Shown here piece by piece: positions 33,454 to 60,651 of a stretch of 64,000 nucleotides of DNA. Location: the NCBI RefSeq assembly GCF_026130175.1, contig NZ_JAIGNI010000022.1, positions 1-64,000 of the forward strand, read 5' to 3'. The DNA comes from Lyngbya sp. CCAP 1446/10. GTDB taxonomy: Bacteria; Cyanobacteriota; Cyanobacteriia; Cyanobacteriales; Microcoleaceae. The notes under the pieces were generated by a model. That model saw only the letters and a list, made by a program, of their open reading frames with translations, made no database searches and was not told the origin of the DNA. How positions within the stretch are numbered: the stretch's first letter is position 1; the number at the start of each line of letters is the position of its first letter. The position numbers and the translations under genes are program-made.

Positions 33454-36039
33454 ATGAGCGATTTGATGCCGACAAACATAGAGGCAGAGGAAGCAATTTT
33501 GGGCGGGATTTTAATTGACCCCGAAGCGATTTCCCGAATTGCTGAAATTCTGCGGCCGGAGTTTTTTGCCATCACCGCTCATCAAGTCATTTATCGATCG
33601 GCATTAGGGCTATTTTTGCAAGGTCAACCGACAGATTTAATGACGGTAACGACTTGGTTGACCGATCGCAACCAGTTAGAACAAGTCGGAGGACTAACTA
33701 AATTAGCACAATTAGTCGATCGTACAGTTTCAGCAGTCAACATCGACCAATATGCAGCTCTAGTTGAAGACAAATATCAGCGCCGCCGATTGATCGAAGC
33801 TGGCAACAACATAGTACAATTAGGTTACGAGACAGCAGCACCGCTAGAAACAGTCTTAGACCGCGCCGAACAAGAAGTTTTCGGCATCACTCAAGACCGC
33901 CCGCAACAAGATTTAGTATCGATCGGCGAAACCCTAAACCAAACATTTCAAGATTTAGAAAATCGCAATGAAGGCCTGACGCTTCCCGGTATTCCGTGCG
34001 GTTTTTATGATTTAGATGCTATGACAGGAGGCTTTCAGCGATCGGATTTAATCATCGTTGCAGCCAGGCCGGCAATGGGCAAGACGGCCTTTTGTACCAA
34101 CATCGCCCACCACATCGCCGCTGGACAGCAAAAATTTCCGGTTGCCGTTTTCAGCTTAGAAATGTCCAAAGAACAGCTAGTGCAGCGTATTCTTTCCAGT
34201 GAAGCGAAAATAGAAAGTAATAGGTTGCGATCGGGTAGAATCAGTCAAAACGAATGGGAACCAATCAGTACAGCCATTGGCAACTTATCAGAATTGCCGC
34301 TGTTTATTGATGATACTCCCAATATTACCGTGATGGAGATTCGATCCAAAGCCCGCCGCCTCCAAGCCGAACAAGGCGGAACTCTAGGATTGATTTTGCT
34401 AGATTACCTGCAATTAATGGAAGGTAGCAGCGACAACCGCGTGCAAGAATTATCTCGAATTACTAGAGGTCTTAAAGGTTTAGCCCGCGAGCTCAACGTG
34501 CCGATTATTGCCTTATCTCAGTTGAGTCGAAGTGTGGAAGCAAGGACAAATAAGCGGCCGATGATGTCGGATTTACGGGAATGTGTTACTGGTGATACGC
34601 CCGTACTGTTAGCGAATGGTCGCCGAGTTCCAATTCGCGACTTAGTGGGACAAAAGCCAATGGTATTGGCGATGAATCATTTAGAAAAGATTGCGGTGGC
34701 GAAAAGTGACAAGGTTTGGCGAGTAGGAGTCAAGCCTGTTTTTGTCCTTAAGTTAGCCAGTGGTAGAAGCCTCAAGGCTACGGCTCAACATCGAATCTAC
34801 ACAGAGCAAGGTTGGCAAGAGTTAAATTCGGTTCAGGTGGGAAGTCGGGTGGCAATTGCCAGATTTATTCCTGAGCCTCAGAAACCAATTAACTGGAAGG
34901 AACATGAAATTTCTTTGCTAGCTCACTTGATGGGAGATGGTAGCTATCTTAAGGGTCAGCCGCTCAGGTATACCACTGCATCCGAGGAAAATAGTGAAAT
35001 CGTAAAGACCGCTGCTGAGTATTTTGGTGTCCAAGTCAATCGACACGAAAGTAAAGGTAACTGGCATCAATTAGTTTTCAGTGGTAATGGAAACCGTTGG
35101 GAACCCAGGGGAATCAATCTATGGCTGCGAAATCTGGGTATTTTTGACCAACGATCCCATGAGAAACATATTCCCCCAGAAGTATTTCAACTTGATAATC
35201 AGCAAGTTGCGAGTTTTCTGGCCCATCTGTGGGCTACTGATGGCACTTACCACGTCCCTAAATCTGAGAAAAGCGCCACGAAAATTAGCCTTGCGACTTG
35301 CAGCAGTTATCTGGCGCAAGGAGTGGCTGCGCTGTTATTCAGGTTCAACATAGTAGCCAGAATTAGGACTGTTCAACAAAAAAGTCATCGTTGTGTTTAC
35401 CACGTAGATATTTCTGGCAAAGCCATGCAGGACAATTTCCTGGAACAAATTGGTTCCGTAGGCTGCAAAGTAGCAGATGCTGGGCGATTGAAGATGAGAA
35501 TTGCTGGAAAGGTTGCTAATCCTAACCGAGATACTTTGCCTAAAGAAGTATTTCAGACTATTCGTGAGCGTATGCGGGAATGTAATGTTACGACACGCCA
35601 GATGTCTATATTGAGAGAAACAGCCTACGGTGGTTCTGCCCACTTCAGTTTTGCTCCTTCACGAGAAACGGTTTTAGACTATGGCAAACTTCTGGGTAGT
35701 GATGCCTTGGTTCAAAAAGCATCTTCTGACTTGTTCTGGGATGAAGTGATTAATATCTCAGCAGCAGGAGAAGAAGAAGTCTTTGACTTGACTGTTCCTG
35801 GTGTCGAATCTTGGTTAGCTGATGGCATTGTCAGTCATAACTCTGGATCGATCGAGCAAGACGCCGATTTAGTAATTATGCTCTACCGAGATGAATATTA
35901 CAATCCTGATTCGCCCGATCGCGGAATTGCCGAAGTCATCATCACCAAACACCGAAACGGCCCCACAGGAATCATCAAACTATTATTCGATGCCCAATAT
36001 ACCTCATTCCGCAATCTAGCATCTCCGAAGCGCTCTTAA
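33454..36039 (+). CDS. dnaB: replicative DNA helicase DnaB with intein
   Basis: The hexameric helicase that unwinds the replication fork and recruits primase. The precursor is 861 residues; removing the 420-residue intein leaves 441, a normal DnaB length. The N-terminal domain starts MPTNIEAEEAILGGILIDPEA. The RecA-like domain has Walker A ARPAMGKTAF (about 203-212), Walker B LILLDYLQLM (about 314-323) and IALSQLSRSVEARTNKRP. The intein interrupts the DLRE/SGSIEQDADLV block (after residue 376), a known DnaB intein site that contains the arginine-finger loop. Splicing is therefore required for function. It starts at ATG 33454. Confidence 0.97.
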   Translation: MSDLMPTNIEAEEAILGGILIDPEAISRIAEILRPEFFAITAHQVIYRSALGLFLQGQPTDLMTVTTWLTDRNQLEQVGGLTKLAQLVDRTVSAVNIDQYAALVEDKYQRRRLIEAGNNIVQLGYETAAPLETVLDRAEQEVFGITQDRPQQDLVSIGETLNQTFQDLENRNEGLTLPGIPCGFYDLDAMTGGFQRSDLIIVAARPAMGKTAFCTNIAHHIAAGQQKFPVAVFSLEMSKEQLVQRILSSEAKIESNRLRSGRISQNEWEPISTAIGNLSELPLFIDDTPNITVMEIRSKARRLQAEQGGTLGLILLDYLQLMEGSSDNRVQELSRITRGLKGLARELNVPIIALSQLSRSVEARTNKRPMMSDLRECVTGDTPVLLANGRRVPIRDLVGQKPMVLAMNHLEKIAVAKSDKVWRVGVKPVFVLKLASGRSLKATAQHRIYTEQGWQELNSVQVGSRVAIARFIPEPQKPINWKEHEISLLAHLMGDGSYLKGQPLRYTTASEENSEIVKTAAEYFGVQVNRHESKGNWHQLVFSGNGNRWEPRGINLWLRNLGIFDQRSHEKHIPPEVFQLDNQQVASFLAHLWATDGTYHVPKSEKSATKISLATCSSYLAQGVAALLFRFNIVARIRTVQQKSHRCVYHVDISGKAMQDNFLEQIGSVGCKVADAGRLKMRIAGKVANPNRDTLPKEVFQTIRERMRECNVTTRQMSILRETAYGGSAHFSFAPSRETVLDYGKLLGSDALVQKASSDLFWDEVINISAAGEEEVFDLTVPGVESWLADGIVSHNSGSIEQDADLVIMLYRDEYYNPDSPDRGIAEVIITKHRNGPTGIIKLLFDAQYTSFRNLASPKRS
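34582..35841 (+). other. DnaB intein with LAGLIDADG homing endonuclease
   Basis: In-frame intein of 420 residues (residues 377-796 of the precursor). It begins with Cys (CVTGDTPVLL, block A). Block B has the T-x-x-H motif in KATAQHRIYTEQGW. Two dodecapeptides, LLAHLMGDGSY and FLAHLWATDGTY, mark a LAGLIDADG endonuclease. Block F is VFDLTVPGVESWLADG, and it ends in His-Asn (VSHN) followed by Ser as the first residue of the C-extein. All residues needed for standard splicing are present, and both endonuclease acidic residues remain, so it may still be mobile. Confidence 0.95.
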
Positions 36040-45636: not shown

Positions 45637-48600
45637 ATGTCTTTGCCAGCAGCCGACCGTCCCCAATCTGTAGCAACTGATAGCGAATGTTCCTATCAAC
45701 TTTCACCGATCCAGCAGGGGATGTTGTTCGAGGGCCTTTCGGGTCAACAGTCAGGGGTAGATATCGAACAGGTACTGTGCAGCCTGGGCGAAGAATTGAA
45801 TGTTTCAGCTTTTGTCGATGCTTGGCGCCAAAGTGTCGATCGATATCCAGTTTTGAGAACGAGTTTTAGTTGGTTGGATCGAGAGGTGCCGGTGCAAACT
45901 GTACACCAACAAGTCGAAGTGCCAATTGTTGACGAAGACTGGCGCAGTTTGTCGGAGGACGATCGCGCCCGCCAACTCGCAACCTTTTTGCAAGCCGATC
46001 GCCTGCAAGGATTTGACCTAACTCAACCGCCGCTGATGCGTTTGGCTTTGTTCCGAGTTGCGGAAACTCAATACAAACTCATCTGGACTTATCACCATAT
46101 TTTGCTTGACAATACCTCGGCAATAACTGTTTTGCAAGCAGTTTTTACCTTGTACGAAGCCCTGACTGGTGATCGACAATTAGAATTAACAGCGCCAAAT
46201 GGCGATCGAGCTCGCAGCGATCGGATGCAGCCAGATATCTCGAAAACAGAAGAATTTTGGAGGCAATACTTAAGCGGTTTTTGCGATCGTACCCCTTTGG
46301 TTGGCGGTGTTTCCCCGGTAGGGAAGATAGCAAACCCGCAAGAAAATTTACCCTCACCAGAAATCAGGCTTTCTAGCAGTGTTACCGCAGCTTTAAACTC
46401 TCTAATTCAAAAACAACAATTAACCCTGAATACCCTGCTGCAAGGAGTCTGGGCTTTACTCTTGAGCCGCTGTTCCGGTTCGGAAGATGTAGTATTTGGA
46501 TCTATTTGCAACAGTCGATCGCCAAATATAGAAAAAATAGAACCAGCAGTAGGGTTGTTCATCAATACTTTGCCGCTGAGAGTAATTGTCACTCCAGAAA
46601 TGCCAGCGATCGATTGGCTGAAACAACTGCAAAATCAATGGAATGCGGTGCAAGAATACAGTAACGTACCGCTGGCAAAAACTCAAGAATGGAGCGAAAT
46701 CTCCCGCAGCAGCGCTTTATTTGAAAGCTTGCTAGTAGTTGAAAAATGCCAGTTCAATTCTGCCTTGCAATCTCTAGGCGGTAACTGGAACAACCGAGAA
46801 TTTCAGGTTTTAGAACAGACGAGTTTTCCCCTAACAGTTTATGGCTACGGGGGAGATGAATTGCTGCTGAAAATTGCGGGCGATCGCCAGCGGTTCGATC
46901 CGATCGCCCTGACTCGAATGTTGGGACACCTGCAAACTTTGCTCGAAAGTATAGCAGCGAATCCCCAGCAGAAAATCAGCAAATTGTCAATGCTGACAGC
47001 AGCCGAAATTGCTCAATTGCAGGCCTGGAATCAAACTGAGGCAAATTATCCCGACGACAAATGCGTTCACCAATTATTTGAAGCGCAAGTTGAGCGATCG
47101 CCCGATGCCATTGCCGCCGTTTTTCCCCACAATTCCCAACAGCAGCTTACCTATCGCGAACTCAATTCGCGATCGAATCAACTAGCCCATTACTTGCAGG
47201 AATTAGGAGTCGGGCCCGATGTTTTAGTCGCGATTTGCATGGAACGTTCCTTAGAAATTGCGATCGCCGTTTTAGGCATTCTCAAAACAGGCGCAGCTTA
47301 CGTGCCGATCGATCCAGCCTATCCCAAAGAAAGGCTGACTTTCATGTTAGCCGACACCAAAACTCCCGTTATACTCACACAATCTCACTTAGTTTCGGGC
47401 TTGCCGGAACATCAAGCGCGAACCGTTTGTTTGGACGCAAACTGGCAAGAAATCGCCAATTATAGCACCGAAAACCCCGCCAGCACCGTATCTCCTGAAA
47501 ACCTAACTTATACAATATATACATCAGGTTCCACAGGCAAACCCAAAGGAGTTCTCCTCCCGCACCGCGCCCTAGTCAACCTAATTGCGTGGCAACTGCA
47601 AAACTCCACCTTGGAAGACGCAGCCAAAACCCTGCAATTTGCCTCCCTCAGCTTCGATGTCTCATTTCAAGAAATGTTTTGTACTTGGTGTGCGGGCGGC
47701 ACCCTCGTTTTCATCACCGAAGAAATGCGGCGAGATCCACGGAGTTTGTTGCAGCTAATCGACACAGAAAAGATTCAAAGACTATTTCTCCCTTTCATCG
47801 CCCTGCAACACTTAGCCGAAGCCGCCGATAGCTATCAGCTAGTACCCAAATCGCTGCGCGAAGTAGTCACCGCCGGCGAACAGTTGCAAGTCAACCGTTA
47901 CATAGTCAGTTTCTTTCAGCAGCTAGAAAATTGCACCCTGCACAATCAATACGGCCCCTCGGAGAGCCACGTTGTCACAGCTTATACCCTCAGCGGCCCG
48001 CCGGAAAATTGGCCCGCACTGCCTCCGATCGGCCGCCCTGTTGCCAATACGGAAATATATTTGTTACACATGAATGGTGAGCCTGTGCCGATCGGCGTTC
48101 CTGGAGAATTGCACATTGGAGGTATCTGTTTGGCGCGCGGCTACCTCAACCGCCCGGACTTGACTGCTGAAAGATTTATTCCCAATCCCTTAAACGATTT
48201 TAGATTGCCAATTTTAGATTTTAGATTGGAGGAAGATGCACAGAAACCAGAGATTGCTGAAAGCCAAGAAGTATCTAATTCTGCCCGATCGCATCTCCTT
48301 TATAAAACAGGAGATTTAGCTCGCTACCAGCCCGACGGTAATATCGAGTACATCGGACGTATTGACGGTCAAGTCAAAATTCGCGGCTTCCGCATAGAGT
48401 TGGGAGAAATCGAAACTGCACTAGCAAAACATCGGGCCGTCAAACAAGCTGTAGTGCTAGCGCGGGAAGATACACCGGGAGACAAACGATTGGTTGCTTA
48501 TTTAGCAGTCAATCCAGAAGAGCAACTAACAATTGCCGACCTCCGCGTCCAATTGCAATCGCAACTCCCCGATTACATGGTGCCTGCGCTGTTTGTGACT

Positions 48601-49017
48601 GTGGAGGCGATGCCGAAGACTCCCAGCGGCAAAATTGACCGCCGCGCCCTACCAGCACCTGACTCGCAGCGACAAGAACTGTCGCAGGGTTACGCGGCAC
48701 CGCAGAGCGAGTTGGAGAAAGTGCTAGCGGGCATTTGGTCTAAGTTGCTGAAGCTCGATCGCGTGGGGATTCATGACAATTTCTTCGAGATTGGAGGCAA
48801 TTCTCTGATGACTCTGCAAATTGCGGTGCAAGTGCGGGATCTACTACAAAAAGACTTGCCAGTTGTGAAATTGTTCCAGCATCCGACGATCGCCCAATTG
48901 GCCAATTATTTAAACCAAGGAGAAAGTACGAAGCAGTCTAGTAACAAATTTCAAGATAGGGCCGATCGACAAAAAGCTGCTTTTGGTCGCTCGAAGCAAT
49001 CTACTAAAAGAGGCTAA
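45637..49017 (+). CDS. non-ribosomal peptide synthetase, C-A-PCP (loading/first module)
   Basis: First enzyme of the assembly line. I prefer ATG 45637 (MSLPAADRP, about 1126 residues); an ATG at 45535 adds 34 residues. Counting from 45535: condensation domain about 55-480 with HHILLDN near 185; adenylation domain about 510-1030 with YTSGSTGKPKG, NQYGPSES and TPSGKIDRRALP; PCP about 1055-1125 with DNFFEIGGNSLMT (phosphopantetheine Ser). Read against GrsA, the specificity residues are D-V-Q-F-V-A-Q-V-V. This is nearest to proline-type codes (D-V-Q-x-I-A-H-V-V), but His is replaced by Gln, so the substrate is uncertain. A ~26-residue insert lies between A7 and the GDLARY motif (about 886-912). 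A basic C-terminal tail (KQSTKRG) may dock with the PKS. Confidence 0.95.
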   Translation: MSLPAADRPQSVATDSECSYQLSPIQQGMLFEGLSGQQSGVDIEQVLCSLGEELNVSAFVDAWRQSVDRYPVLRTSFSWLDREVPVQTVHQQVEVPIVDEDWRSLSEDDRARQLATFLQADRLQGFDLTQPPLMRLALFRVAETQYKLIWTYHHILLDNTSAITVLQAVFTLYEALTGDRQLELTAPNGDRARSDRMQPDISKTEEFWRQYLSGFCDRTPLVGGVSPVGKIANPQENLPSPEIRLSSSVTAALNSLIQKQQLTLNTLLQGVWALLLSRCSGSEDVVFGSICNSRSPNIEKIEPAVGLFINTLPLRVIVTPEMPAIDWLKQLQNQWNAVQEYSNVPLAKTQEWSEISRSSALFESLLVVEKCQFNSALQSLGGNWNNREFQVLEQTSFPLTVYGYGGDELLLKIAGDRQRFDPIALTRMLGHLQTLLESIAANPQQKISKLSMLTAAEIAQLQAWNQTEANYPDDKCVHQLFEAQVERSPDAIAAVFPHNSQQQLTYRELNSRSNQLAHYLQELGVGPDVLVAICMERSLEIAIAVLGILKTGAAYVPIDPAYPKERLTFMLADTKTPVILTQSHLVSGLPEHQARTVCLDANWQEIANYSTENPASTVSPENLTYTIYTSGSTGKPKGVLLPHRALVNLIAWQLQNSTLEDAAKTLQFASLSFDVSFQEMFCTWCAGGTLVFITEEMRRDPRSLLQLIDTEKIQRLFLPFIALQHLAEAADSYQLVPKSLREVVTAGEQLQVNRYIVSFFQQLENCTLHNQYGPSESHVVTAYTLSGPPENWPALPPIGRPVANTEIYLLHMNGEPVPIGVPGELHIGGICLARGYLNRPDLTAERFIPNPLNDFRLPILDFRLEEDAQKPEIAESQEVSNSARSHLLYKTGDLARYQPDGNIEYIGRIDGQVKIRGFRIELGEIETALAKHRAVKQAVVLAREDTPGDKRLVAYLAVNPEEQLTIADLRVQLQSQLPDYMVPALFVTVEAMPKTPSGKIDRRALPAPDSQRQELSQGYAAPQSELEKVLAGIWSKLLKLDRVGIHDNFFEIGGNSLMTLQIAVQVRDLLQKDLPVVKLFQHPTIAQLANYLNQGESTKQSSNKFQDRADRQKAAFGRSKQSTKRG

Positions 49018-49022
49018 ATCGA

Positions 49023-49093
49023 AGGAAGAAGGAATAAGGAAGAAGGAAGAAGGAAGAAGGAAGAAGGAAGAAGGAAGAAGGAGGAAGAAGGAA
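49023..49093. repeat. GAAGGAA heptamer tandem repeat between NRPS and PKS genes
   Basis: About ten heptamers, with one interruption, of the same type as 3611-3680. They fill most of the 148-base spacer within the biosynthetic locus. Confidence 0.93.
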
Positions 49094-49165
49094 AATTTAT
49101 ACAGTAAGTTGTTGATTTATTTTTGTTTGACGTTCGATTAAATTGATTTTACTTAACTTAAATTT

Positions 49166-52100
49166 ATGAATGATTCAATCGATTCCGAAGAAAATCAAGA
49201 ACTTGACGGCATTGCCATTATCGGCATGGCCGGCCGCTTTCCCGGTGCTGCAAGTGTCACTGAACTGTGGCAGAATTTGTGCGGGGGAGTCGAGTCTACA
49301 ACGTTTTTCAGCGATGCGGAACTAGACCCCAGTGTTGATCCGGCCCTCCAACAAGCTCCAAATTACGTCAAAGCTAGAGGAATTATTGACGGGGCCGATC
49401 GCTTTGATGCTGCATTTTTCGGTGTCAGTCCCCGCGAAGCCGAAATTACCGACCCGCAGCAACGGGTTTTTTTAGAAATAGCTTGGGCCGCCCTCGAAAA
49501 TGCAGGCTGCGATCCCAATACTTTTAACGGTTCGATCGGAGTTTATGCCGGCACTGGCAACAATACTTATTTTCCCAACAACATCGCCGGGCGATCGGAC
49601 ATAATTTCCCGCGCCGGCGAGTTTCAGGTGATGGTAGGGAACGAAAAAGACTACATCGCTACCCGCACTTCTTACAAACTGAATCTCAAGGGGCCGAGCG
49701 TCAGCGTTCATACCGCTTGCTCTACATCATTAGTTGCAATTTGTCAAGCTTTTTATGCTTTGATGAGCTATCAATGCGATTTAGCTCTCGCCGGCGGGAT
49801 TTCGATTACGGCTCCCCAAAATAGCGGTTATTTGTATCAAGAAGGGGGGATGTTTTCTAGCGACGGACATTGCAAACCTTTTGATGCCCAAGCTGAAGGC
49901 ACTGTGTTCGGCAACGCTGCTGGGGCTGTGGTACTCAAGCGTTTGGAAGAGGCGATCGCCGACAGAGATACAATTTATGCGGTAATTCGTGGCGTCGGTT
50001 TAAATAACGACGGGGCGGCAAAAGTCAGTTTTGCAGCGCCCAGCGTGGATGGACAAGCAGAGGCGATCGCGATGGCGCAGGCGATGGCAGGTGTAGATCC
50101 AGAAACCATATCCTACGTCGAAACCCACGGCACCGCAACTCCCCTCGGCGATCCGATCGAAATTGCAGCCTTGACACAAGCCTTTGCTCTCAAAACCACA
50201 GCTAAACAATTTTGCGCGATCGGCTCCATCAAAAGCAACTTCGGACACACGATCGCCGCCGCCGGAGTCACGGGGCTAATTAAAACAGCTTTAGCCCTCA
50301 AACACCAACAAATACCCGCCACTCTCCACTACGAAACACCGAATCCGGCGATCGACTTTGCCAACAGCCCCTTCTACGTCAACGCCGAACTTGCGGAATG
50401 GAAAGCCGGGAAAACGCCCAGAAGAGCGGGAGTAAGTTCCTTTGGAGTCGGCGGTACCAACGCTCACGTTGTGCTCGAAGAAGCGCCGGCACTCACACCG
50501 TCAAGCCCTTCTCGCCCCAGACAGTTGCTGCTGCTATCGGCAAAAACAGCATCTGCTTTGGACGCGGCTACTGCAAACTTGCGATCGCACTTCGCCGAAA
50601 ACCCAGAAATCGATCTCGCCGATGCTGCTTACACCTTGCAAACCGGGCGGCAAGCCTTTAATTACCGCCGTTTCGCCGTTTGCAGCGATCGCTCCGATGC
50701 CCTAGAGTTACTCGCATCCCTGCCACCGCTACGCACTGCCACCCGCTGCACCGAATCGAGAAATCCGGCGGTAATCTTCATGTTTCCGGGACAAGGGGCG
50801 CAATACGTCAATATGGGCTTGAATTTGTACGAATCTGAGCCTTTATTCCGCTCCACGGTCGATCGCTGCGCCGAAATTTTGCAGCCGCACCTAGGCCTAG
50901 ATTTGCGCCAAGTGCTATATCCCGGTAGCGATGAAACCGCAGCCGCCGAGTCTCTCCGCCAAACCTTTTTGACTCAGCCTGCAATATTTACCGTAGAGTA
51001 CGCGCTGGCCCAACTGTGGCAGAGTTGGGGCGTAATTCCCCAAGGTGCGATCGGGCACAGCATTGGCGAATTTGTCGCGGCAACTATCGCCGGCGTGTTT
51101 TCCCTGGAAGATGCGCTGATGCTGGTGGCTGCTAGAGGGCGCTTGATGCAAGATTTACCGGGGGGATCAATGCTGTCGGTACGGTTGCCGGCGGCGCAAG
51201 TCGAAGGGCGCTTGAGTGGGGATTTGGCTGTGGCGGCGGTGAATGCGCCGGATTTGTGCGTGGTTTCTGGGCCCACAGATGCGATCGCACTTTTTGAACA
51301 GCAATTAACCAGCGAAAAGATTGTCTGCAAACACTTGCACACTTCCCACGCTTTCCATTCGCCGATGGTAGATTCGATCGTCGAACCTTTCGCTGAATAT
51401 GTCAAAAAAGTGCAATTGTCAGCGCCAACTATCCCCTTTGTTTCGACTGTAACTGCTAGTTGGATCACCGCAGAACAAGCAACAGATCCGATGTATTGGG
51501 CGCGGCATTTGCGGGCGACAGTGCGTTTTGCTGATGGCATTAAAGAGCTGTGGCAAGATCCGAATCGCGTGCTTTTGGAAGTCGGGCCGAGAACAACGGC
51601 TGCTACTTTGGCTCGCAAACAATCCAAAGATTTGAAAAAACAAGTCGCTATTTCTTCTTTAACCGATAATCCAGATAACAACGCTGAATGGACTGCTTTG
51701 TTGAGTGCCGCCGGACAGCTTTGGCTTTGCGGAGTGTCGATCGACTGGCAGAGTTTTTATCAGGAGGAAACGCGCGATCGCATTCCCTTACCAACTTACC
51801 CGTTTGAAAGCAAACGCTTCTGGATCGAACCCATGCGGAGAGAGGGGGAGATGGGGAGAGTGGGAGATGGGGAGAATTCCCAACGCCCAATGCCCGATGC
51901 CCAATCCCCAATGCCCGATGCCCAATCCCCAATGCCCGATGCCCAACTAACAACTATCAACTCATTACCAATGTCAAATTTACAAGTCGCAACCCAACAA
52001 CTAGCTCGCAAAGAAAGACTCATTCCCCAAATCAAAAATATCTTAGAAGAAACTTCTGGTGAAGATTTAGGCAGCGTCAGCGACGATATGACCTTTTTAG

Positions 52101-54232
52101 AAATGGGTTTAGATTCTCTATCTTTGACTCAAGTAGCGCTGAACCTGCAAAAAGAATTTAAGGTTAAAATTACCTTCCGCCAGCTACTAGAAACTTTCCC
52201 CAGTCTCGAAACTTTATCTGAATTTATCGACGGATCTTTGCCGCCGGAAGTTTTGCCCGCAGCAATTCCCGCAGCAATTCCCGCAGCAATTCCCGCAGCA
52301 ATTGCCGTACCAATTCCCGCAGCAATTCCCGCACCAATTGCCACACCAATTGCAGCCAGCGCCCCGGTAAATCTGCCAGCCCCGCAACCTCAAATCTTGC
52401 AACCCGTACCATCTAGCAACCTCGAATACTTGATCGGCCAGCAGTTGCAGATTATGTCGCGACACCTAGAATTGTTAGGTGGCGGTGTTCCCGCACAGCC
52501 TGCACCGACAGCCCCAACTCAAATGGTGCAGCCCCCCGCACCGGTGCAACATATCCCGCAATCGAGCAATAACAGCAGCACGATCGCCCCAACCGCCCAA
52601 CCCGCACCATCCGCCGAGCCCACCGCCGAGCCCAAAAAAGTATTCGGCGCAGCCGCCCGCATCGATACATCCGATCGCGGTGCCCTAACTCCCTCGCAAA
52701 CTGCATATTTAGAAACATTTGTCAAGCGGTATACGGCGCGAACCCAAAAATCGAAACAGTACACTCAGACTCACCGCCACCACCTCGCAGATCCGCGCGT
52801 AGTTTCCGGCTTTAACCGGACGATGAAAGAGTTGGTTTATCCGATCGTGGTGGGACGATCGTCCGGTTCCAAACTTTGGGATGAAGACGGTAACGAGTAT
52901 GTCGATTTAACCAACGGTTTCGGGTCGAACTTTTTCGGATATTCAGCGCCATTTGTTACAGAAGCGATCGCCGCCCAAATGCAGCGCGGATTTGAAATCG
53001 GGCCGCAAACACCGCTAGCGGGGGAAGTCGCCGAACTCGTGTGCGAAATGACCAAGCACGATCGCGTGGCATTCTGCAATACCGGTTCTGAGGCAGTTTT
53101 GGGTGCAATGCGACTCGCCCGCACCGTCACCGGCAACAGTACAATCGCCATGTTTACTGGCGACTATCACGGGATTTTCGACGAAGTAATCGTGCGCGGA
53201 ACTAAGAAATTGCGATCGCTCCCAGCAGCACCGGGAATTCCCCAATCCGCCGTTGACAATACCCTGATCCTCGACTATGGCGAACCCGAATCCCTAGAAC
53301 TTCTCAGAGCGCGGGCGGGCGATTTGGCAGCCATCATGGTAGAACCGGTACAAAGCCGCCGCCCCGACTGGCAACCGCGAGAATTCCTCCACGAAGTGCG
53401 CCGGATTTGCGATCGAGCCGGTTGCGCCTTCATCATGGACGAAGTGATTACCGGATTCCGAGTAGCACCGGGCGGCGCTCAAGAATATTTCGGCGTACAA
53501 GCCGATATCGGTACCTATGGCAAAGTTGTCGGCGGCGGAATGTCGATCGGGGTAATTGCGGGCAAGTCTGCCTGGATGGACGCTTTTGACGGCGGATTTT
53601 GGCAATTCGGAGATGACTCGTTCCCCGAAGTTGGCGTTACCTATTTTGCAGGAACTTTTGTCCGCCATCCGCTGACTTTAGCAGCCGCCAAAGCATCCCT
53701 CGAATATTTGAAACGGGGCGGGCCTTCATTGCAGCGCGATCTCAATGCCAAAACTGACCAATTAGTTGCAGAATTGAGCGCCATGTTCGATCGCGAGCAA
53801 ACACCTTTCACGGTTAAAAACTTTGGTTCCCTGTTCAAAATCTCCTACCCGCAAGATTTTTCTCATGGAGAATTGCTCTTCTACTCGCTGCGGGAAAAAG
53901 GCATTCACATTTGGGATCACCGCCCGTGTTTCCTGACGCTAGCCCATTCCGACGCAGATATTGCTTTTATCAAGGAAGCATTTAAAAACAGTATTGCCGA
54001 ATTGCAGTCAGCCGGATTTTTAGCCGGTGGATCTGAGGAAGCTGTGAGGGCGATCGAATTCCACAATCACAGTAATATTAATGGAGGAAAGTCCTCAACT
54101 GCTTTCGCCCAAAATGCTCCCGTACCCGGTGCAAAATTAGGGCGAGATCCTAACGGTAATCCCGCTTGGTACGTAGCCGATCCAGAGCGCCCAGGCAAAC
54201 ATTTACAAGTAGGAGATAATTTATCCAATTGA
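49166..54232 (+). CDS. polyketide synthase with aminotransferase, KS-AT-ACP-AMT
   Basis: A 1688-residue type I PKS that should add one C2 unit and replace the beta-keto with an amine. The ketosynthase (about 12-435) has [23 protein letters not shown] and [11 protein letters not shown]. The acyltransferase (about 535-835) has [10 protein letters not shown] and the malonyl-type HAFHSP motif. The ACP (about 955-1025) has [14 protein letters not shown] aminotransferase of the glutamate-semialdehyde class (about 1200-1640) has [15 protein letters not shown] and the Lys in [10 protein letters not shown]. There is no ketoreductase, dehydratase or methyltransferase. The layout matches the PKS-AMT part of McyE- and iturin-type enzymes. 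In-frame repeats occupy both linkers around the ACP. The C-terminal tail ([20 protein letters not shown]) looks like a linker to a condensation domain, supplied by the next NRPS. Confidence 0.95.
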
Positions 54233-54257
54233 TTGTTAAAGTTGGCAATTAAATCCG

Positions 54258-54323
54258 GCAGGGGCGGGTTCACCAACAATAATTGCCTGAAATCGATCGT
54301 CTAAAAAACCCGCCCCCACCAAA
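54258..54323. repeat. GGGGCGGGTT inverted-repeat element, copy 2
   Basis: GGGGCGGGTT at 54261-54270 pairs with AACCCGCCCC at 54308-54317. It lies 26 bases after the PKS stop and before the oxygenase gene, where the stem could reduce readthrough. The spacer starts CACCAACAATAATT, like the copy at 17064. Confidence 0.85.
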
Positions 54324-54400
54324 CGATAAATCTCAATCTACCTGTAAATAATTTTCACATCGGCAATGAATTTCAACTAAACAACACAGGAAAAACCCAA

Positions 54401-55276
54401 ATGCTCCAAACAGCAAAAACTCTTCAAATAGACCGCCGCACAGGCCTGACTCACCAGGAATTTGTCAGCGAGTACCGCAATCCCGGCAAACCAGTTATTT
54501 TCACCGATTTATCAAAAAATTGGCCCGCAGCAGCGAAATTTACCCCAGAGTATTTTGAAGACAATTTTGGCGATCGCGAAATAGAAATAGGTGGCAAGAT
54601 TTACACCCTCACAAAATTGTTCGACTTGCTGAAAAATTCCACCAAAGAAAATCCGGCTCCCTATCCTTTTAAACTCAATGTCCGCAAAGATTTTGCCGAT
54701 TTAGAGCCTGATGTCTCTCCCCGACCGAGCATTGCCAAACCCGATCGCACCCACAGCAGCTTAATCCCGAAAAAGCTGCTCGATAATTTGTACGACTTAG
54801 AAATCTTCTTTGGCGGCCCAGGAGGAGAATTTCCTTATTTGCATTACGATTTTCTAGGGCTTTACGCCTATATCAATCAGATTTACGGAGAAAAAGAATT
54901 TACCATTTTTACGCCGGAACAGCAAAAGTATCTCTATCCGCGCCAGAATTCTCCTTGGGTGTCTGAGATTGAAAACCATCACAATCCTGACTTAAAAAAA
55001 TATCCGCTTTTTGCTGAAGCTACGCCCACAAAAATTACCATCTCAGCCGGTGAAACGCTGTTTATTCCCTGTGGCTGGTATCACACGGCAAGGTCGCTGA
55101 CTTTAACAATTTCCGTAGCATTTGACCAGCTTTGCGAATCAAATTGGGATTTTTTTACGAACGAATGCTGCATTCCTAGAGGTCAAAATTCCTTCAAAGC
55201 CAAAATGATTAAAGCCTATCTAAAAAGTGCAGGTGCCGTGCTTAGTGCTCGCGAAAAATTGATGGGGACAGATTAA
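54401..55276 (+). CDS. JmjC/cupin-8 Fe(II)/2-oxoglutarate-dependent oxygenase
   Basis: Probable hydroxylase acting on the assembly-line intermediate or product. The 291 residues start with an N-terminal PGKPVIFTDLSKNWPAAAKFTPEYF block (about 29-53) typical of cupin-8/FIH-like proteins. The iron-binding facial triad is complete: His148 and Asp150 in PYLHYDFLG and His228 in CGWYHTARSLTL. IFTPEQQKYLYP and ISAGETLFIP are further family blocks. It sits between the PKS and the second NRPS on the same strand, with 168 and 245 bases of spacer. Position implies a tailoring role; the substrate (bound amino acid or free product) cannot be told from sequence. Confidence 0.88.
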   Translation: MLQTAKTLQIDRRTGLTHQEFVSEYRNPGKPVIFTDLSKNWPAAAKFTPEYFEDNFGDREIEIGGKIYTLTKLFDLLKNSTKENPAPYPFKLNVRKDFADLEPDVSPRPSIAKPDRTHSSLIPKKLLDNLYDLEIFFGGPGGEFPYLHYDFLGLYAYINQIYGEKEFTIFTPEQQKYLYPRQNSPWVSEIENHHNPDLKKYPLFAEATPTKITISAGETLFIPCGWYHTARSLTLTISVAFDQLCESNWDFFTNECCIPRGQNSFKAKMIKAYLKSAGAVLSAREKLMGTD

Positions 55277-55340
55277 TAAATTCGATTGTAGCTTGCTTCT
55301 GCGTAGCAGTACAAAGCGAACCCAACATAACTTCTGATTG

Positions 55341-55475
55341 AACCACAGAGGGCGCAGAGCAAGCAGAGAAAAAGGAGAGAAATTCATCGTTCCAATGCTT
55401 ATCGGATTTGATACCCCTATGATTCTCTCTCTCTGCTTACCTCCTCTCTCTGCGCCCTCTGCGCCCTCTGCGGTT
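55341..55475. repeat. inverted repeat of a CACAGAGGGCGCAGAG element
   Basis: AACCACAGAGGGCGCAGAG at 55341-55359 is mirrored by TCTGCGCCCTCTGCGGTT ending near 55475. Another copy of the left arm lies at 59653-59672. The two together flank the second NRPS gene. Confidence 0.8.
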
Positions 55476-55521
55476 AAAAAACATTATCTAGATCAGTTAT
55501 TCTACTGTTAATTAATATCCC

Positions 55522-58500
55522 ATGAAAACAACCGCAGATATACCATCAAAACTAACTGCTGTAGACTTCGATCCCTTCGCAGGGGGAGAACTTTTTGCTT
55601 GCGTACCCCCCACGGAAGCGCAGAAAGAAATCTGGATTGCCGTGCAAATGGGAAATGAGGCAAATTGTGCTTACAACGAATCGATGTGTTTGCGATTGCA
55701 AGGAAATCTCGATCTTGAATCTCTGCGATTTTCCATTCAGGAATTAGTGCAGCGACACGATGCGCTGCGGGCAACATTTAGCCCCGACGGATCGACTCTT
55801 TGCGTTGCTGCGTCGATCGCCCTCGATATTCCAACGATTGACTTGTCAATTTTGGACGATCGCGATCGCGAATCGAAATTAGCTTATTTGCGCCGCCAAG
55901 AAGTCGATCGCCCATTCAACCTAGTCAGCGGGCCGCTGTTTCGCAGTCAAATTATTAAGCTGCAAGAACAGGAACACATCGTTATTATCACCGGTCACCA
56001 CATTATTTGCGATGGCTGGTCTTGGGGCATCTTATTTCCCGATTTGGGAGCAATTTACTCTGCCAAAAAGCAAGGATTAGCCGCCAATCTTCCCCAACCA
56101 GAAAGTTTTACAGAATACGCAATTTTACAAGAAGCACAGTCAACAAGCACCGAAGTTATTGACGCAGAAGACTATTGGTTAAAGCTTTTTTCCGACACAA
56201 CTCCGGTGGTGGATTTGCCGACAGACAGACCGCGGCCTGCTTTGAGAACTTACAATGGTTCGCGGGAAGATTGGGAACTAAATCCCGATCTAGTTGCTAA
56301 CCTCAAACGCCTGGGAAAAAAAGCAGGTTGCAGTTTTTTTACAACTCTCTTTGCTGGATTTGAAGCATTTATGTACCGCTTGTGCGGGCAAGAGGATTTG
56401 GTTGTGGGAATGCTGGCGGCGGGACAGCTTGTTGGAGGAAAAGACAAGCTTGCCGGACACTGCGTGAGCTTGTTGCCGCTGCGCACCCGCATTGACGGGG
56501 AACAGTCTTTTATCGATTATTTGCGATCGCGCCGCACGGGAGTTTTAGATGCACTCGATCGCCAGCAGATTACATTCGGTACTCTGATGAAAAAACTAGC
56601 ATTGCCGCGGGATTTCAGCCGCATTCCGCTAGTGCCTGTAACTTTTAATCTGGACGTACAGCTTACGGAAGAACAGCTTAATTTTCCAGGTTTTAAAGCT
56701 GAAGCTTTCTCGAATCCCAGAACTTATGAAAACTTTGAATGGGCGGTGAATGCCAGCGAAACAAAAAGCAAACTCGTGCTGGAGTGCCAGTACAATACAA
56801 ACATATTTGATGCTGCGACAATCTGCCGCCGCATGGCTGAATTTGAGGTGCTGTTAGAAGCGATCGCAGCCAATCCAAAGCAGAAGATTTCAGAATTGCC
56901 CCTGCTGACAGAAATAGAGCGACACCAGCTCCACGTCGAGTGGAATAACACTTGGGCTGAGTATCCCCAGGATAAGTGCATTCATCAGTTGTTTGAGGCG
57001 CAAGTTGAGCGATCGCCTGATGCTATTGCGGTAGTTTTTGAAGAGGAAAAACTCACCTATCGAGAATTAAATGCAAGAGCCAACCAGTTGGCGCACTATC
57101 TGCGATCGTTGGGAGTGGGGCCAGAAGTGCTTGTGGGGATTTGCGTCGAGCGATCGCTCTTAATGGCGATCGGTCTGTTGGGTGTCCTCAAAGCCGGTGG
57201 TGCTTATGTTCCAATAGACCCTGCTTATCCTAGAGAACGTATTACCTACGTGCTGCAAGATGCTGGCGCACTCGTCTTGCTGACTCAAAAATCTTTACTT
57301 GAAAATTGGCCCGAAAGCGGGGCGCGTCTAGTGTGCGTGGATGCAAATTGGAATGAAATTGCCCAACAGAGTCAAGACAACCCTAACAGTTTAGTAAAAC
57401 CGGATAATCTCGCCTATGTAATTTACACTTCCGGCTCCACTGGCAAGCCGAAAGGCGTGCAAATTCCTCACAGCGCTGTCGGAAATTTTCTCACCTCCAT
57501 GTCGGGCACTCCGGGTTTAGAAGCGTCAGATATTCTTCTAGCCGTCACCACTGTATCTTTTGACATTGCGGCTTTAGAAATCTTTCTGCCGCTGACGTTA
57601 GGGGCTAGCAGTGTTCTAGTCAGTCGAGAAGTGGCTTCAGATGGTAGACAGCTTAGTGCTATTCTCGCTCGAACGGGCGCTACAGTTATGCAAGCAACAC
57701 CCGCTACTTGGCGAATGCTTTTAGAATCGGGGTGGATTGGCAGTTCTAATTTAAAAATCCTCTGCGGTGGTGAAGCTCTACCTCGCGAACTAGCGAATCA
57801 ATTACTCTCTCGTTGCGCCTCACTGTGGAATATGTATGGCCCCACAGAGACGACTATATGGTCGGCTGTTTCTCAGGTGACGGCGGGAGATGAGCCAGTG
57901 CGAATTGGGAGGGCAATCGCCAATACGCAATTCTATATCTGCGACTCTCATTTGCAGCCAGTTCCGGTAGGAGTCAGGGGGGAGTTGCTTATTGGTGGCG
58001 TCGGCTTGGCGCGGGGATATCTCAACCGACTTTCTTTGACTGAAGATAAATTTATTCCTAATCCTTTCAGCGATAAACCAGACGCGCGTCTCTACAAAAC
58101 AGGGGATTTGGCCCGCTACCTGACCGACGGCAACATCGAATATTTCGGTCGCATGGATAACCAGGTAAAAATACGCGGCTTCCGCATCGAACTGGGGGAA
58201 ATTGAAACCCTACTGAGCCAGCATCCCGATGTAAGAGAGACTGCGGTCATCGCCAGAGAGAACGTTGCTCTTGACAAACAATTGGTAGCTTATGTTGTCT
58301 GCCATCAGCAACCCGCACCCGCAATCAGTGACCTGCGCCGCTTCCTGAAAAAAAAACTGCCCGAATATATGGTGCCGGGTGCTTTTGTCGTGCTGGAGGC
58401 ACTGCCGCTGACACCCAACGGTAAAGTTGACCGCCGCGCTTTGGCAACTCAAAAGTGGCAATCTGCCAGCGTTGCACCCGATGAAACAATTTCTGTTACC

Positions 58501-59550
58501 CCCCGCGACAAGTTAGAACTCCAAGTGACCAAAATTTGGGAACAAGTTTTAGGCATCAATTCAGTTGGCATCAGGGACAATTTCTTCGAGGTGGGAGGAC
58601 ATTCGCTGCTAGCAGCGCGCTTGTTAGCTGAAATTGAAAAAGTCTTCGGCAAAAATCTGCCACTGTCTGCTATGTTTCAATCGCCAACAGTTGAGCAATT
58701 GGCTAACATTCTCCGCGAACCGAATTGGTCGTCACCGTCACCGTCAATGGTAGTGATTCAACCGGGAACAGGAAGTTACAAACCCCCTCTGTTCTGCATT
58801 CACGCGCTCGGCAGGGGATTGGAATTTTACCGTCCTTTGCTGAATCATTTGGATCGATCGCAAGCTGTTCTGGGACTGTCTACCCAGATTATGGATGAAA
58901 AACTGGCTCCCCCCAATCGAGTTGAGGAATTGGCAGCTTATTACATCAAAGAAATGCAAGTTTTCCAGCCATACGGGCCTTATTTTCTGTTAGGAGTATC
59001 TTTTGGCGGGACGGTAGCTTTTGAGATGGCTCGGCAACTCAATGCGAAAGGTGAGAAGGTAGCTTTGCTGGGATTTTTGGATACTTACGGCCCGGATGCT
59101 TTCAAACATTTGCCTGAAATAAAAAGCGGTCAACGCGTGATGAAAATGTTACGGCTCAAACCAGGTGTATTTCTGAATAAAGCGAAGAGCAATCTGATGG
59201 GAAAAATCGAGATGCTTACTTTTATTCAGTATAGAATTTTGTGTAAATTTTACCGATTAATCGGGCGTCCCTTGCCGATTTATTTGGAAAATTTCACTCA
59301 TGAAGAACTCAATAATGAGGCATTGAGACACTATGTAGCGGGAGTTTACTCTGGTCGAGCGACTATCTTCAAAGCGGTTGAGAGTGCATCGGTGTTTGGT
59401 GCAGATCGCGAATTGGGTTGGGGCGAGGTAGTTGCTGGAGGAATAGAGATTAACGAGATCCCTAGCGACCATTTGGGGATGTTACAAGAGCCCCACGTTC
59501 GGATACTGGGGGAAAAATTGCAGGCCGCAGTCGATCGCGCTCAAGGTTAA
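55522..59550 (+). CDS. non-ribosomal peptide synthetase, C-A-PCP-TE (terminal module)
   Basis: The last enzyme, 1342 residues. Condensation domain about 25-450 begins VPPTEAQKEIWIAVQMGNEA, a start seen in C domains that follow PKS-aminotransferase modules, and has HHIICDGWSWG near 160. Adenylation domain about 485-980 has YTSGSTGKPKG near 637, NMYGPTETT and TPNGKVDRRAL. Its specificity residues D-I-L-Q-L-G-M-I-W match published glycine-type codes (D-I-L-Q-L-G-L-I-W) at eight of nine positions. PCP about 995-1060 has EVGGHSLLAARL. The thioesterase (about 1090-1340) has LLGVSFGGTVAFEMA with the active Ser. It should add glycine and release the product by hydrolysis or cyclisation. Confidence 0.96.
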   Translation: MKTTADIPSKLTAVDFDPFAGGELFACVPPTEAQKEIWIAVQMGNEANCAYNESMCLRLQGNLDLESLRFSIQELVQRHDALRATFSPDGSTLCVAASIALDIPTIDLSILDDRDRESKLAYLRRQEVDRPFNLVSGPLFRSQIIKLQEQEHIVIITGHHIICDGWSWGILFPDLGAIYSAKKQGLAANLPQPESFTEYAILQEAQSTSTEVIDAEDYWLKLFSDTTPVVDLPTDRPRPALRTYNGSREDWELNPDLVANLKRLGKKAGCSFFTTLFAGFEAFMYRLCGQEDLVVGMLAAGQLVGGKDKLAGHCVSLLPLRTRIDGEQSFIDYLRSRRTGVLDALDRQQITFGTLMKKLALPRDFSRIPLVPVTFNLDVQLTEEQLNFPGFKAEAFSNPRTYENFEWAVNASETKSKLVLECQYNTNIFDAATICRRMAEFEVLLEAIAANPKQKISELPLLTEIERHQLHVEWNNTWAEYPQDKCIHQLFEAQVERSPDAIAVVFEEEKLTYRELNARANQLAHYLRSLGVGPEVLVGICVERSLLMAIGLLGVLKAGGAYVPIDPAYPRERITYVLQDAGALVLLTQKSLLENWPESGARLVCVDANWNEIAQQSQDNPNSLVKPDNLAYVIYTSGSTGKPKGVQIPHSAVGNFLTSMSGTPGLEASDILLAVTTVSFDIAALEIFLPLTLGASSVLVSREVASDGRQLSAILARTGATVMQATPATWRMLLESGWIGSSNLKILCGGEALPRELANQLLSRCASLWNMYGPTETTIWSAVSQVTAGDEPVRIGRAIANTQFYICDSHLQPVPVGVRGELLIGGVGLARGYLNRLSLTEDKFIPNPFSDKPDARLYKTGDLARYLTDGNIEYFGRMDNQVKIRGFRIELGEIETLLSQHPDVRETAVIARENVALDKQLVAYVVCHQQPAPAISDLRRFLKKKLPEYMVPGAFVVLEALPLTPNGKVDRRALATQKWQSASVAPDETISVTPRDKLELQVTKIWEQVLGINSVGIRDNFFEVGGHSLLAARLLAEIEKVFGKNLPLSAMFQSPTVEQLANILREPNWSSPSPSMVVIQPGTGSYKPPLFCIHALGRGLEFYRPLLNHLDRSQAVLGLSTQIMDEKLAPPNRVEELAAYYIKEMQVFQPYGPYFLLGVSFGGTVAFEMARQLNAKGEKVALLGFLDTYGPDAFKHLPEIKSGQRVMKMLRLKPGVFLNKAKSNLMGKIEMLTFIQYRILCKFYRLIGRPLPIYLENFTHEELNNEALRHYVAGVYSGRATIFKAVESASVFGADRELGWGEVVAGGIEINEIPSDHLGMLQEPHVRILGEKLQAAVDRAQG

Positions 59551-59853
59551 CATTGGACAATTGACAGTTGATAGTTCACAGCAAAAACTCCGATCTAATT
59601 TTCGTTGTGAATTATCAACTATCAAATCGTTTCTGGTTGCATCGGAATGATTTAACCACAGAGGGCGCAGAGAACACAGAGGAAGATTGGAGAGAGATGA
59701 ATACAGGACTATGAAGCGTGGATTTTATATGACTCGATTTTACAATTCCGATGCTACCGGATTTGATATTAATTGTTTAAATCTCCATCCTAAAAACTCG
59801 CTGTCAACTGTCAACTGTCAACTGTTAACTGTTAACTGTTAACTGTTAACTGT
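59551..59853. other. intergenic region after the NRPS/PKS locus
   Basis: No gene seen. It contains TTGACAGTTGATAG-type heptamers, one copy of the AACCACAGAGGGCGCAGAG element (59653-59672) and a heptamer array CTGTCAACTGTTAACTGTTAA at about 59803-59850 next to the cobS end. No clear terminator was found. Confidence 0.7.
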
Positions 59854-60651
59854 TTAACCTTCCAAGGCGGCCAAAAGACACAGCAACAAAGCCTCCGTCC
59901 ACTCAACTACAGCACCGTAAGTATCGCCCGTGTGGCCACCCAAACGGTGGTTAAACCAGGCTCCGACAAAAATTCCGATCGCACTTCCGCCCAAAGCCAT
60001 CCCCACCGCCAACAGCCACCGATCGCCCGACAAGACAACTTGCAGTACGCTCAAACTCAGCAGCAACAGCACTCCTGGGATAAAATCAAACGGAGAATAA
60101 ATCGATTCTTTATGAAAAGCTCCCTTACCCTCCGGGCGGAGATAGGGATAACGGGCGATCGCCACCAGTTGCCCCCATCTCCCCCAACCTGCCACACCCA
60201 TCAAAGCCAGCCACCGATAGTTACTCAAGTCCGAGAGAGCGGCAGTTTTCAGCAGGATGATCGCGATCGCAGCCATCGCCCCAAAAGCCCCTGTAACGCT
60301 ATCCCGCATCACTTCCAGCCGGCGCACCGGGTCGGGGACGGCCAGCCCGTCCGCCGCGTCCATTGCTCCATCTAGGTGCAGCCCGCCAGTGATGGCAATG
60401 CCCAAAACTACTACTAATGCCGATCGAGTCAGAGCAGGCATACCCAACAAATGCAACCCAAGATCTGCCAGTCCCAGCATCCCGCCAATCAAAAGCCCGA
60501 TCGCCGGAGCCAAGCGAGCAATGCCCCGAAACTCCAAAGTCCAAGACACCGGCACCGGCAAACAAGTATAAAACGCGACTGCGGCTGCAATGGCAGCGCC
60601 TTGATTCCGGAAAAAGTCGATTGTAGAGCGAACCAATTTATCATCCACCAT
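59854..60651 (-). CDS. cobS: adenosylcobinamide-GDP ribazoletransferase (cobalamin synthase)
   Basis: Membrane enzyme that joins adenosylcobinamide-GDP and alpha-ribazole in the last stage of cobalamin (or pseudocobalamin) synthesis. The 265 residues have about six membrane helices. Family blocks: FYTCLPVP (about 27-34), [35 protein letters not shown] (about 92-126, acid-rich metal site) and the C-terminal [24 protein letters not shown] (about 233-256). The start is ATG 60651. No other cobalamin gene is in the window, and no convincing cobalamin riboswitch was found upstream. Confidence 0.94.

Follow-up and report, generated by a model that had tools for sequence, protein, structure and literature searches.

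The DNA considered here is a stretch of 64,000 nucleotides (the window) from Lyngbya sp. CCAP 1446/10, positions 1 to 64,000 of contig NZ_JAIGNI010000022.1 (G000:C86 in our numbering), in a genome of 6.75 Mb assembled in 171 contigs. It carries four plus-strand open reading frames (ORFs), which encode two nonribosomal peptide synthetases (NRPS 1 and NRPS 2), a polyketide synthase (PKS) and an oxygenase. We put at about 60% the probability that these form a collinear NRPS-PKS-NRPS line, predicted to join proline, a malonyl unit carrying a beta-amine, and glycine. Domains are abbreviated as C (condensation), A (adenylation), PCP (peptidyl carrier), KS (ketosynthase), AT (acyltransferase), ACP (acyl carrier), AmT (aminotransferase) and TE (thioesterase). 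The features are as follows.

45637 to 49017, plus strand: NRPS 1, with C (about 45694-47019), A (about 47077-48633, proline-like code) and PCP (about 48721-48912).
49166 to 54232, plus strand: PKS, with KS, AT, ACP, a GSA-type aminotransferase (about 52661-54040) and a C-terminal tail that is kept in relatives.
54401 to 55276, plus strand: oxygenase, Cupin_8/JmjC, of the Fe(II)/2-oxoglutarate type (H148, D150, K165, H228).
55522 to 59550, plus strand: NRPS 2 with release, with C (about 55606-56931), A (about 56992-58425, DILQLGMIW, Gly), PCP (about 58525-58707) and TE (about 58786-59541).
51879 to 51946, plus strand: array of a 21-bp repeat (3.2 copies, 95% matches), in-frame, within the linker that joins AT to ACP in the PKS; not a domain.

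Pfam matches in all four ORFs agree with the original prediction, made from the sequence letters, of four co-directional genes encoding C-A-PCP, KS-AT-ACP-aminotransferase, Cupin_8/JmjC oxygenase and C-A-PCP-TE. The scores are 257 and 303 bits for Condensation, 281 and 305 for AMP-binding, 236 for ketoacyl-synt, 193 for Acyl_transf_1, 178 for Aminotran_3 and 80.5 for Thioesterase, and PP-binding is matched in all three synthases. There are thus complete C-A-PCP and KS-AT-ACP modules and a release domain, as in hybrid NRPS-PKS lines. None of the four ORFs has an internal stop, and the gaps between them are 148, 168 and 245 bp. The NRPS 1 ORF is open already from 45535; position 45637 is a Met at codon 35 and matches the ORF start of the NRPS 1 orthologue in a related genome (G203 in our numbering). 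That the locus is real is confirmed by its genes, domains, motifs, code letters, conservation and fusions, all of them read directly from the DNA.

At the level of catalytic motifs, the A-domain core motifs, the carrier serines, the KS Cys-His-His, the AT motifs GHSIGE and HAFHS (the latter presumably malonyl-type) and the PLP-lysine context are present. The AmT is an Aminotran_3/GSA domain that follows the ACP and is homologous to that of MycA, as in beta-amino PKSs; it was aligned over 450 residues with the solved mycosubtilin AmT (PDB 6kfm; 457 bits). Mycosubtilin-type AmTs are described, in an excerpt of the source, as catalysing beta-amination of an ACP-bound beta-ketothioester (PMC3870968). 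The claim that all catalytic motifs are intact stands for the A, PCP, KS, AT, AmT and oxygenase motifs, but not for the first C domain, which reads HHILLDN against the expected HHxxxDG, with the second His retained. The nine orthologues of this domain that were read (Tychonema bourrellyi, UBA11344, Kamptonema, G203, G407, G408, G397, G415 and G129) read HHILLDS, and four stand-alone C relatives retain DG.

Substrate codes of the A domains were taken from alignments. That of NRPS 2, DILQLGMIW, is a nine-letter identity with a glycine signature printed in an excerpt of PMC12283262, and the last A domain of the window line is predicted to specify glycine, an assignment supported by this identity. 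In four cases the same excerpt associates this signature with an additional monooxygenase insert (PMC12283262); a Pfam scan found no such insert in the window line. The NRPS 1 code, DVQ(L or F)VAQVV, is proline-like, and Val236 and Gln239 are reported there in 59 of 71 proline domains (PMC12283262). From this code NRPS 1 is predicted to load proline or a close analogue. An A-PCP with Asp235 in its code stands in place of acyl-AMP ligase loading, and no ligase of this kind was found in the four ORFs or the ten flanking ORFs scanned.

The order proline, malonyl/amine and glycine, as predicted, is largely supported by natural fusions. In a distant relative (G193), a C remnant, A, PCP, KS, AT, ACP and AmT are found in a single ORF of 2547 amino acids with a Val-type A code. 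In G042, G191 and G125, an A-PCP ORF ends 3 bp before the PKS ORF. Judged by eye, the tails of the A-PCP proteins resemble that of NRPS 1, and relatives conserve both the PKS tail and the opening residues of NRPS 2. The gap from PKS to NRPS 2 is 175-356 bp in G203, G407, G408 and G397, with no ORF listed inside it. A midpoint-rooted tree was built from 40 full-length C domains of 49 found, with partial ones dropped and no named starter C included. In this tree the ten NRPS 2-type C domains form one branch (100/100), and its sister (99/99) is a C domain that follows an AmT within one protein, encoded on contig C90 of the window's own genome. Two more C relatives, G129 (C1) and G101, directly follow an AmT.

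Several observations weigh against such a plan. The NRPS 1 code letter at position 278 is L or F, depending on the alignment column, and the code departs from DVQLIAHVV, which we take to be the commonest proline code, in having V in place of I and Q in place of H. The Q at position 322 is shared with an azetidine code, DMQLVSQQVK, in an excerpt of PMC12283262, and a proline analogue is therefore possible. When 1.5 kb upstream of ten C relatives was scanned, an AmT was present in four, an ACP in one and neither in five. The G125 line (L099 4238-17711; codes Thr-like, Gly and Val-type) keeps an NRPS 2-type C domain with no recognised AmT domain in its PKS, so the tie between this type of C and a beta-amine is not strict. 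The G129 genes are ordered oxygenase, C-A-MT-PCP, TubC-C-PCP-TE, NRPS 1 and PKS, and Kamptonema carries G129-like parts on two contigs with the NRPS 2 gene on another contig. Since NRPS 2 thus lies upstream of NRPS 1 in one genome and on a separate contig in the other, gene order alone is no proof of collinearity.

Alternatively, a free acyl group could be the starter of the PKS. A beta-amino fatty acid, formed from a free acyl-CoA or fatty acyl unit, would then pass to the first C domain of NRPS 1 (proline) and on to NRPS 2 (glycine). This would provide a donor for the first C domain, which otherwise has none, and the non-collinear gene order of G129 is in keeping with it; an excerpt on laxaphycin describes an AMT-PKS that starts from FAAL-loaded hexanoate (PMC7524897). 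However, no acyl-AMP ligase or extra ACP was found in the four ORFs (Pfam) or in the ten flanking ORFs scanned, a ligase not being specifically sought in the loci of relatives. In addition, the fused A-PCP-KS frames place an amino acid ahead of the KS, and the after-AmT type of C domain sits in NRPS 2 and not in NRPS 1. A start on a free acyl group is therefore considered unlikely.

Another question is whether the first C domain of the proline-malonyl-glycine line is an active starter domain, which would take a small or fatty acid provided in trans, N-acylate proline with it and yield an N-acyl-Pro peptide. The domain is full length, keeps its catalytic His and has dN (nonsynonymous divergence) well below dS (synonymous divergence), and nearest to it in the tree stand the leading domains of four C-A-PCP-TE proteins, next to whose genes no further synthase gene was found. 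Floridanemamides are known to contain an N-butyryl proline, according to an excerpt of PMC13252402. Yet in the same tree, with no named starter C in it, the domain groups (100/99) with two C domains labelled by eye as after-epimerase, together with the four stand-alone C-A-PCP-TE domains. The best scores against solved chains are with the McyB, PvdL, bacitracin, surfactin and tyrocidine synthetases, whereas chain 7c1k, which we take to be the rhizomide starter C, scores no more than 45 bits, and at 1e-10 the CDA chain is absent from the list. Neither the window nor the nine orthologues keep the Gly of HHxxxDG, and the lines of G042, G191 and G125 begin with A-PCP only. On balance, N-acylation by this domain has somewhat less than an even chance.

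The line occurs across the genus and mostly ends in a Val-type unit; the oxygenase is an optional part. KS matches at 1e-180 were found in 13 of 60 family genomes. Identity is 93-100% in eight genomes of the window's genus (its own, G415, G407, G203, G408, G396, G397 and G399) and 72-73% in two related genomes (G392 and G129); a further three (G352, G404 and G413), outside the set of loci read, have 64-65%. G396 is taken as T. bourrellyi, G399 as UBA11344 and G392 as Kamptonema. A strain-specific line was rejected, the KS being present at 72-100% in 10 of the 60 family genomes. Seven of the eight genus loci could be followed through the last module; in the eighth, G415, the contig stops inside the PKS. 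The loci of relatives were scanned with the window's own domains only. The G203 and UBA11344 lines are each divided between two contigs.

Decay of the locus to a remnant that makes nothing might be suspected from the T. bourrellyi draft assembly, where NRPS 1 is split into two ORFs, and from the UBA11344 metagenome assembly, where the PKS and NRPS 2 ORFs are split. Nevertheless, all four window ORFs are open and carry their motifs, and G407 and G408 hold full-length NRPS 1, PKS and NRPS 2 ORFs. Moreover, dN is below dS in all 31 domain comparisons that yielded both values (35 were run, and three gave no dS). Against T. bourrellyi, dN/dS values are 0.028/0.49 for the KS, 0.035/0.37 for the AmT, 0.081/0.49 for the oxygenase and 0.146/0.49 for the first C domain; those of the AmT against G203 are 0.032/0.230. 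A remnant is thus very improbable.

The proline-like code of NRPS 1 is found in all eight genus loci, with I for V in G407 and G397, and it is the last unit that varies. DALWLGGTF, presumably a Val-type code, is the last A code in five of the seven loci (G407, G408, G397, T. bourrellyi and UBA11344), one of the seven (G203) carries an additional Pro-type module ahead of Val, and only the window has Gly at the end. Between the NRPS 2 proteins of the window and T. bourrellyi, likeness is 86% in C, 10-75% in A, about 90% in PCP, with a second dip to 55% inside the TE. Because likeness falls across A and returns at the PCP, the A domain seems to have been replaced with its neighbours kept.

Hydroxylation, raised as a possibility in the original prediction, gains support from the oxygenase gene. 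The protein matches Cupin_8 at 99.7 bits and JmjC at 24.1 bits (cut-off 24.0), its motif region reads WYH, and it has the HxD...H metal triad (H148/D150/H228) and the 2-oxoglutarate lysine (K165) of the family. The best solved relative is JMJD5 (71 bits), with H148, D150, K165 and H228 aligned. In four genomes besides its own, among 61 family genomes, it has relatives that are 66-86% identical along nearly its full length. Named contigs with a match are those of T. bourrellyi FEM_GT703, Microcoleaceae UBA11344 and Kamptonema sp. UHCC 0994; a fourth locus, from a planctomycete (26%), was set aside. Sixteen other family genomes that match at 1e-15 show partial matches only (34-39%). Across a broad sample of 386 phylum genomes, two match at 1e-30, its own included. 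Three of the seven loci have the gene (window, T. bourrellyi and UBA11344); in the other four, G203, G407, G408 and G397, none was found (best tblastn E 0.53). In G191 and G193 the AmT-PKS and the next NRPS gene are separated by different Cupin_8-like genes, with 19.6 and 26.8 bits, below the 27.4 cut-off; the two proteins are 50% alike, and their best match to the window oxygenase family has an E of 0.003.

The oxygenase accompanies Gly and Val ends alike, and a Gly residue lacks a beta-carbon; hydroxylation would therefore most likely fall on the shared part of the product. Hydroxylation of the beta-carbon of the last residue was rejected, the last residue of the window line reading as Gly.

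Similar lines are found beyond the cyanobacteria. A tblastn search of plasmids with the PKS gave 523 records, all below 60% identity, 26 of them covering at least 80% of the query; megablast gave three records, each with 1% of the query. Three of 15 listed plasmid rows were opened (Variovorax RA8, Spirosoma linguale DSM 74 and Rhizobium CCGE531), and in all three an A-PCP with Asp235 precedes KS-AT-ACP-AmT, which suggests that 'amino acid, KS, aminotransferase' is a wider architecture. A-PCP-KS-AT-ACP-AmT is one annotated coding sequence in Variovorax RA8 and Spirosoma linguale, and two adjacent ones in Rhizobium CCGE531. The next A code in Rhizobium CCGE531 is DILQLGMIW, as in NRPS 2 of the window, and a 2OG-Fe(II) oxygenase gene is annotated upstream in Variovorax RA8. 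We know of no product of this architecture, and none was named among the literature matches listed.

From the DNA we infer the order of transfer, the substrates and every chemical step of the following scheme. NRPS 1 would load proline, or an analogue, on its PCP. The PKS KS would take the prolyl unit and carry out one extension with malonyl-CoA, and the AmT would convert the ACP-bound beta-ketone to a beta-amine. The expected unit is 3-amino-3-(pyrrolidin-2-yl)propanoyl-ACP, which may be termed the 'aminostatine' of proline. The NRPS 2 C domain would couple this diamino acyl unit to glycine, and the TE would free the product by hydrolysis or cyclisation, with the Cupin_8/JmjC enzyme acting as an optional hydroxylase on the conserved proline/diamino part. 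The predicted core, with neither acylation nor hydroxylation, is C9H17N3O3, for which we calculate [M+H]+ 216.134, or 232.129 when hydroxylated. The A codes and the mycosubtilin/GSA-type AmT support the earlier plan of an amino acid, a malonate with a beta-amine, and glycine. The gamma-extended beta-amino unit of that plan is supported in its beta-amine and refined in one respect: with a first residue predicted to be proline or a close analogue, the unit after extension would be a beta,gamma-diamino acid.

Among the matches listed in a literature search, neither a product of the line nor a characterised cluster with the same gene order was found, and a search on the A-code strings gave no match. 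The line thus appears to be an orphan of otherwise known type. A bestatin-like unit is a known aminopeptidase-inhibitor pharmacophore. Perhaps the line makes an alpha-hydroxy-beta,gamma-diamino acid, with the beta-amine from the AmT and the JmjC-type dioxygenase hydroxylating C-2 in place of a monooxygenase domain. It would then place a bestatin-like warhead at the start of a tiny peptide, and would be one of a wider, uncharacterised family of amino acid-KS-AmT lines in at least three phyla, with the last residue exchanged by A-domain replacement. This extension of the proline-malonyl-glycine scheme is speculative, and we regard it as doubtful.

The line is adjoined upstream by a ChW-repeat gene and downstream by cobS. 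Eight further flanking ORFs comprise FKBP_C, Uma2, a BadF-type ATPase, a weak TrbI, MgtC, one with no match, TGT and GST; there is no acyl ligase, carrier or synthase among these eight. A cobS-like ORF is also downstream in G203, G407, G408 and G397 (by Pfam for the window's own and G408, by ORF-sequence match for the others), and a ChW-type ORF is upstream in G203, G397 and partly G399 (by Pfam for the window's own, by ORF-sequence match for the others). T. bourrellyi has a different downstream ORF, and the genomic site is therefore not common to all loci. Promoter-like sites (12, against 15.7 +/- 4.0 in shuffles) and terminator-like sites (24, against 19.9 +/- 4.7) occur at about the frequency of shuffled sequence. 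Arrays of a 7-bp repeat lie just outside the genes, at 49021-49087 and 59801-59854. Elsewhere in the window, a DnaB-type helicase gene at 33454-36039 is interrupted in frame by an intein (Intein_splicing and LAGLIDADG_3 matches).

Other loci have related proteins. G195, of the same genus, encodes a stand-alone C-A-PCP-TE protein (L097 7541-11704), whose first C is 51% like that of NRPS 1 and whose PCP-TE is 70-73% like that of NRPS 2. Its gene adjoins a likely phosphopantetheinyl transferase ORF (by eye only), and it may be a shortened version of the window line. G129 and Kamptonema have a C-PCP-TE protein with no recognised A domain (L049 11599-14223 and L129 8613-11237; TubC_N-C-PCP-TE by Pfam in G129), the PCP of which would therefore be loaded in trans or empty. 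A second, larger NRPS/PKS line with an AmT-C-A-PCP protein is encoded in the window's own genome (G000:C90, about 3100-40000, minus strand; L011, L012). Three of the four full A codes read there start with V or I and not D (VDWIISLAN, VDWVVSLAD and IDWVVSLAD); we take these to be beta-alanine-like.

If the proposed scheme is true, a KS-AmT pair acting on an aminoacyl unit is a short route to beta,gamma-diamino acids. A literature search by title and start of abstract gave, among the matches listed, no described assembly line for such units. A genus-wide line with constant first units and a Val, Pro-Val or Gly end would also offer a natural series in which to see how A-domain replacement and module insertion alter the final residue of NRPS lines. 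At about 215-275 Da by our calculation, the Gly and Val products, if not acylated, would be very small and easily missed in peptide screens.

Comparison with known systems points to both shared and distinct properties. As in MycA of mycosubtilin/iturin, an AmT follows the ACP at the PKS/NRPS border and is homologous over its length. MycA starts from a fatty acid by means of an acyl ligase, whereas the window line has an amino-acid module before the KS and no ligase in its four ORFs. The laxaphycin/scytocyclamide lxa system also has a cyanobacterial KS and AT-ACP-AMT, plus Cupin_8 proteins that are proposed, in an excerpt of the source, as hydroxylases of peptide residues (PMC7524897). It differs in its FAAL-loaded hexanoate start (PMC7524897) and its rings of 11 and 12 residues, the window line being very short with an amino-acid start. 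A laxaphycin-type assignment was rejected on the other start unit and the much shorter line.

In floridanemamide (fma) and tychonamide lines, an AmT and a monooxygenase domain are held to make a 3-amino-2-hydroxy pattern, and an alpha-keto acid is the proposed starter of fma, as given in an excerpt of PMC13252402. The window line likewise has an AmT, and the same pattern is possible if the oxygenase acts at C-2. A Pfam scan of the four ORFs found no monooxygenase domain of the tychonamide type, and the dioxygenase of the window may replace it. A tychonamide-type assignment was rejected: the start unit differs, the monooxygenase domain is lacking and the line is much shorter. Also rejected, on general knowledge of the microcystin line only, was a microcystin-type assignment. 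In detoxin and rimosamide, proline is extended by one malonate to give detoxinine. As generally described, these lines share with that of the window proline, one malonate and oxygenation, and they differ in that ketoreduction takes place there and transamination is predicted here.

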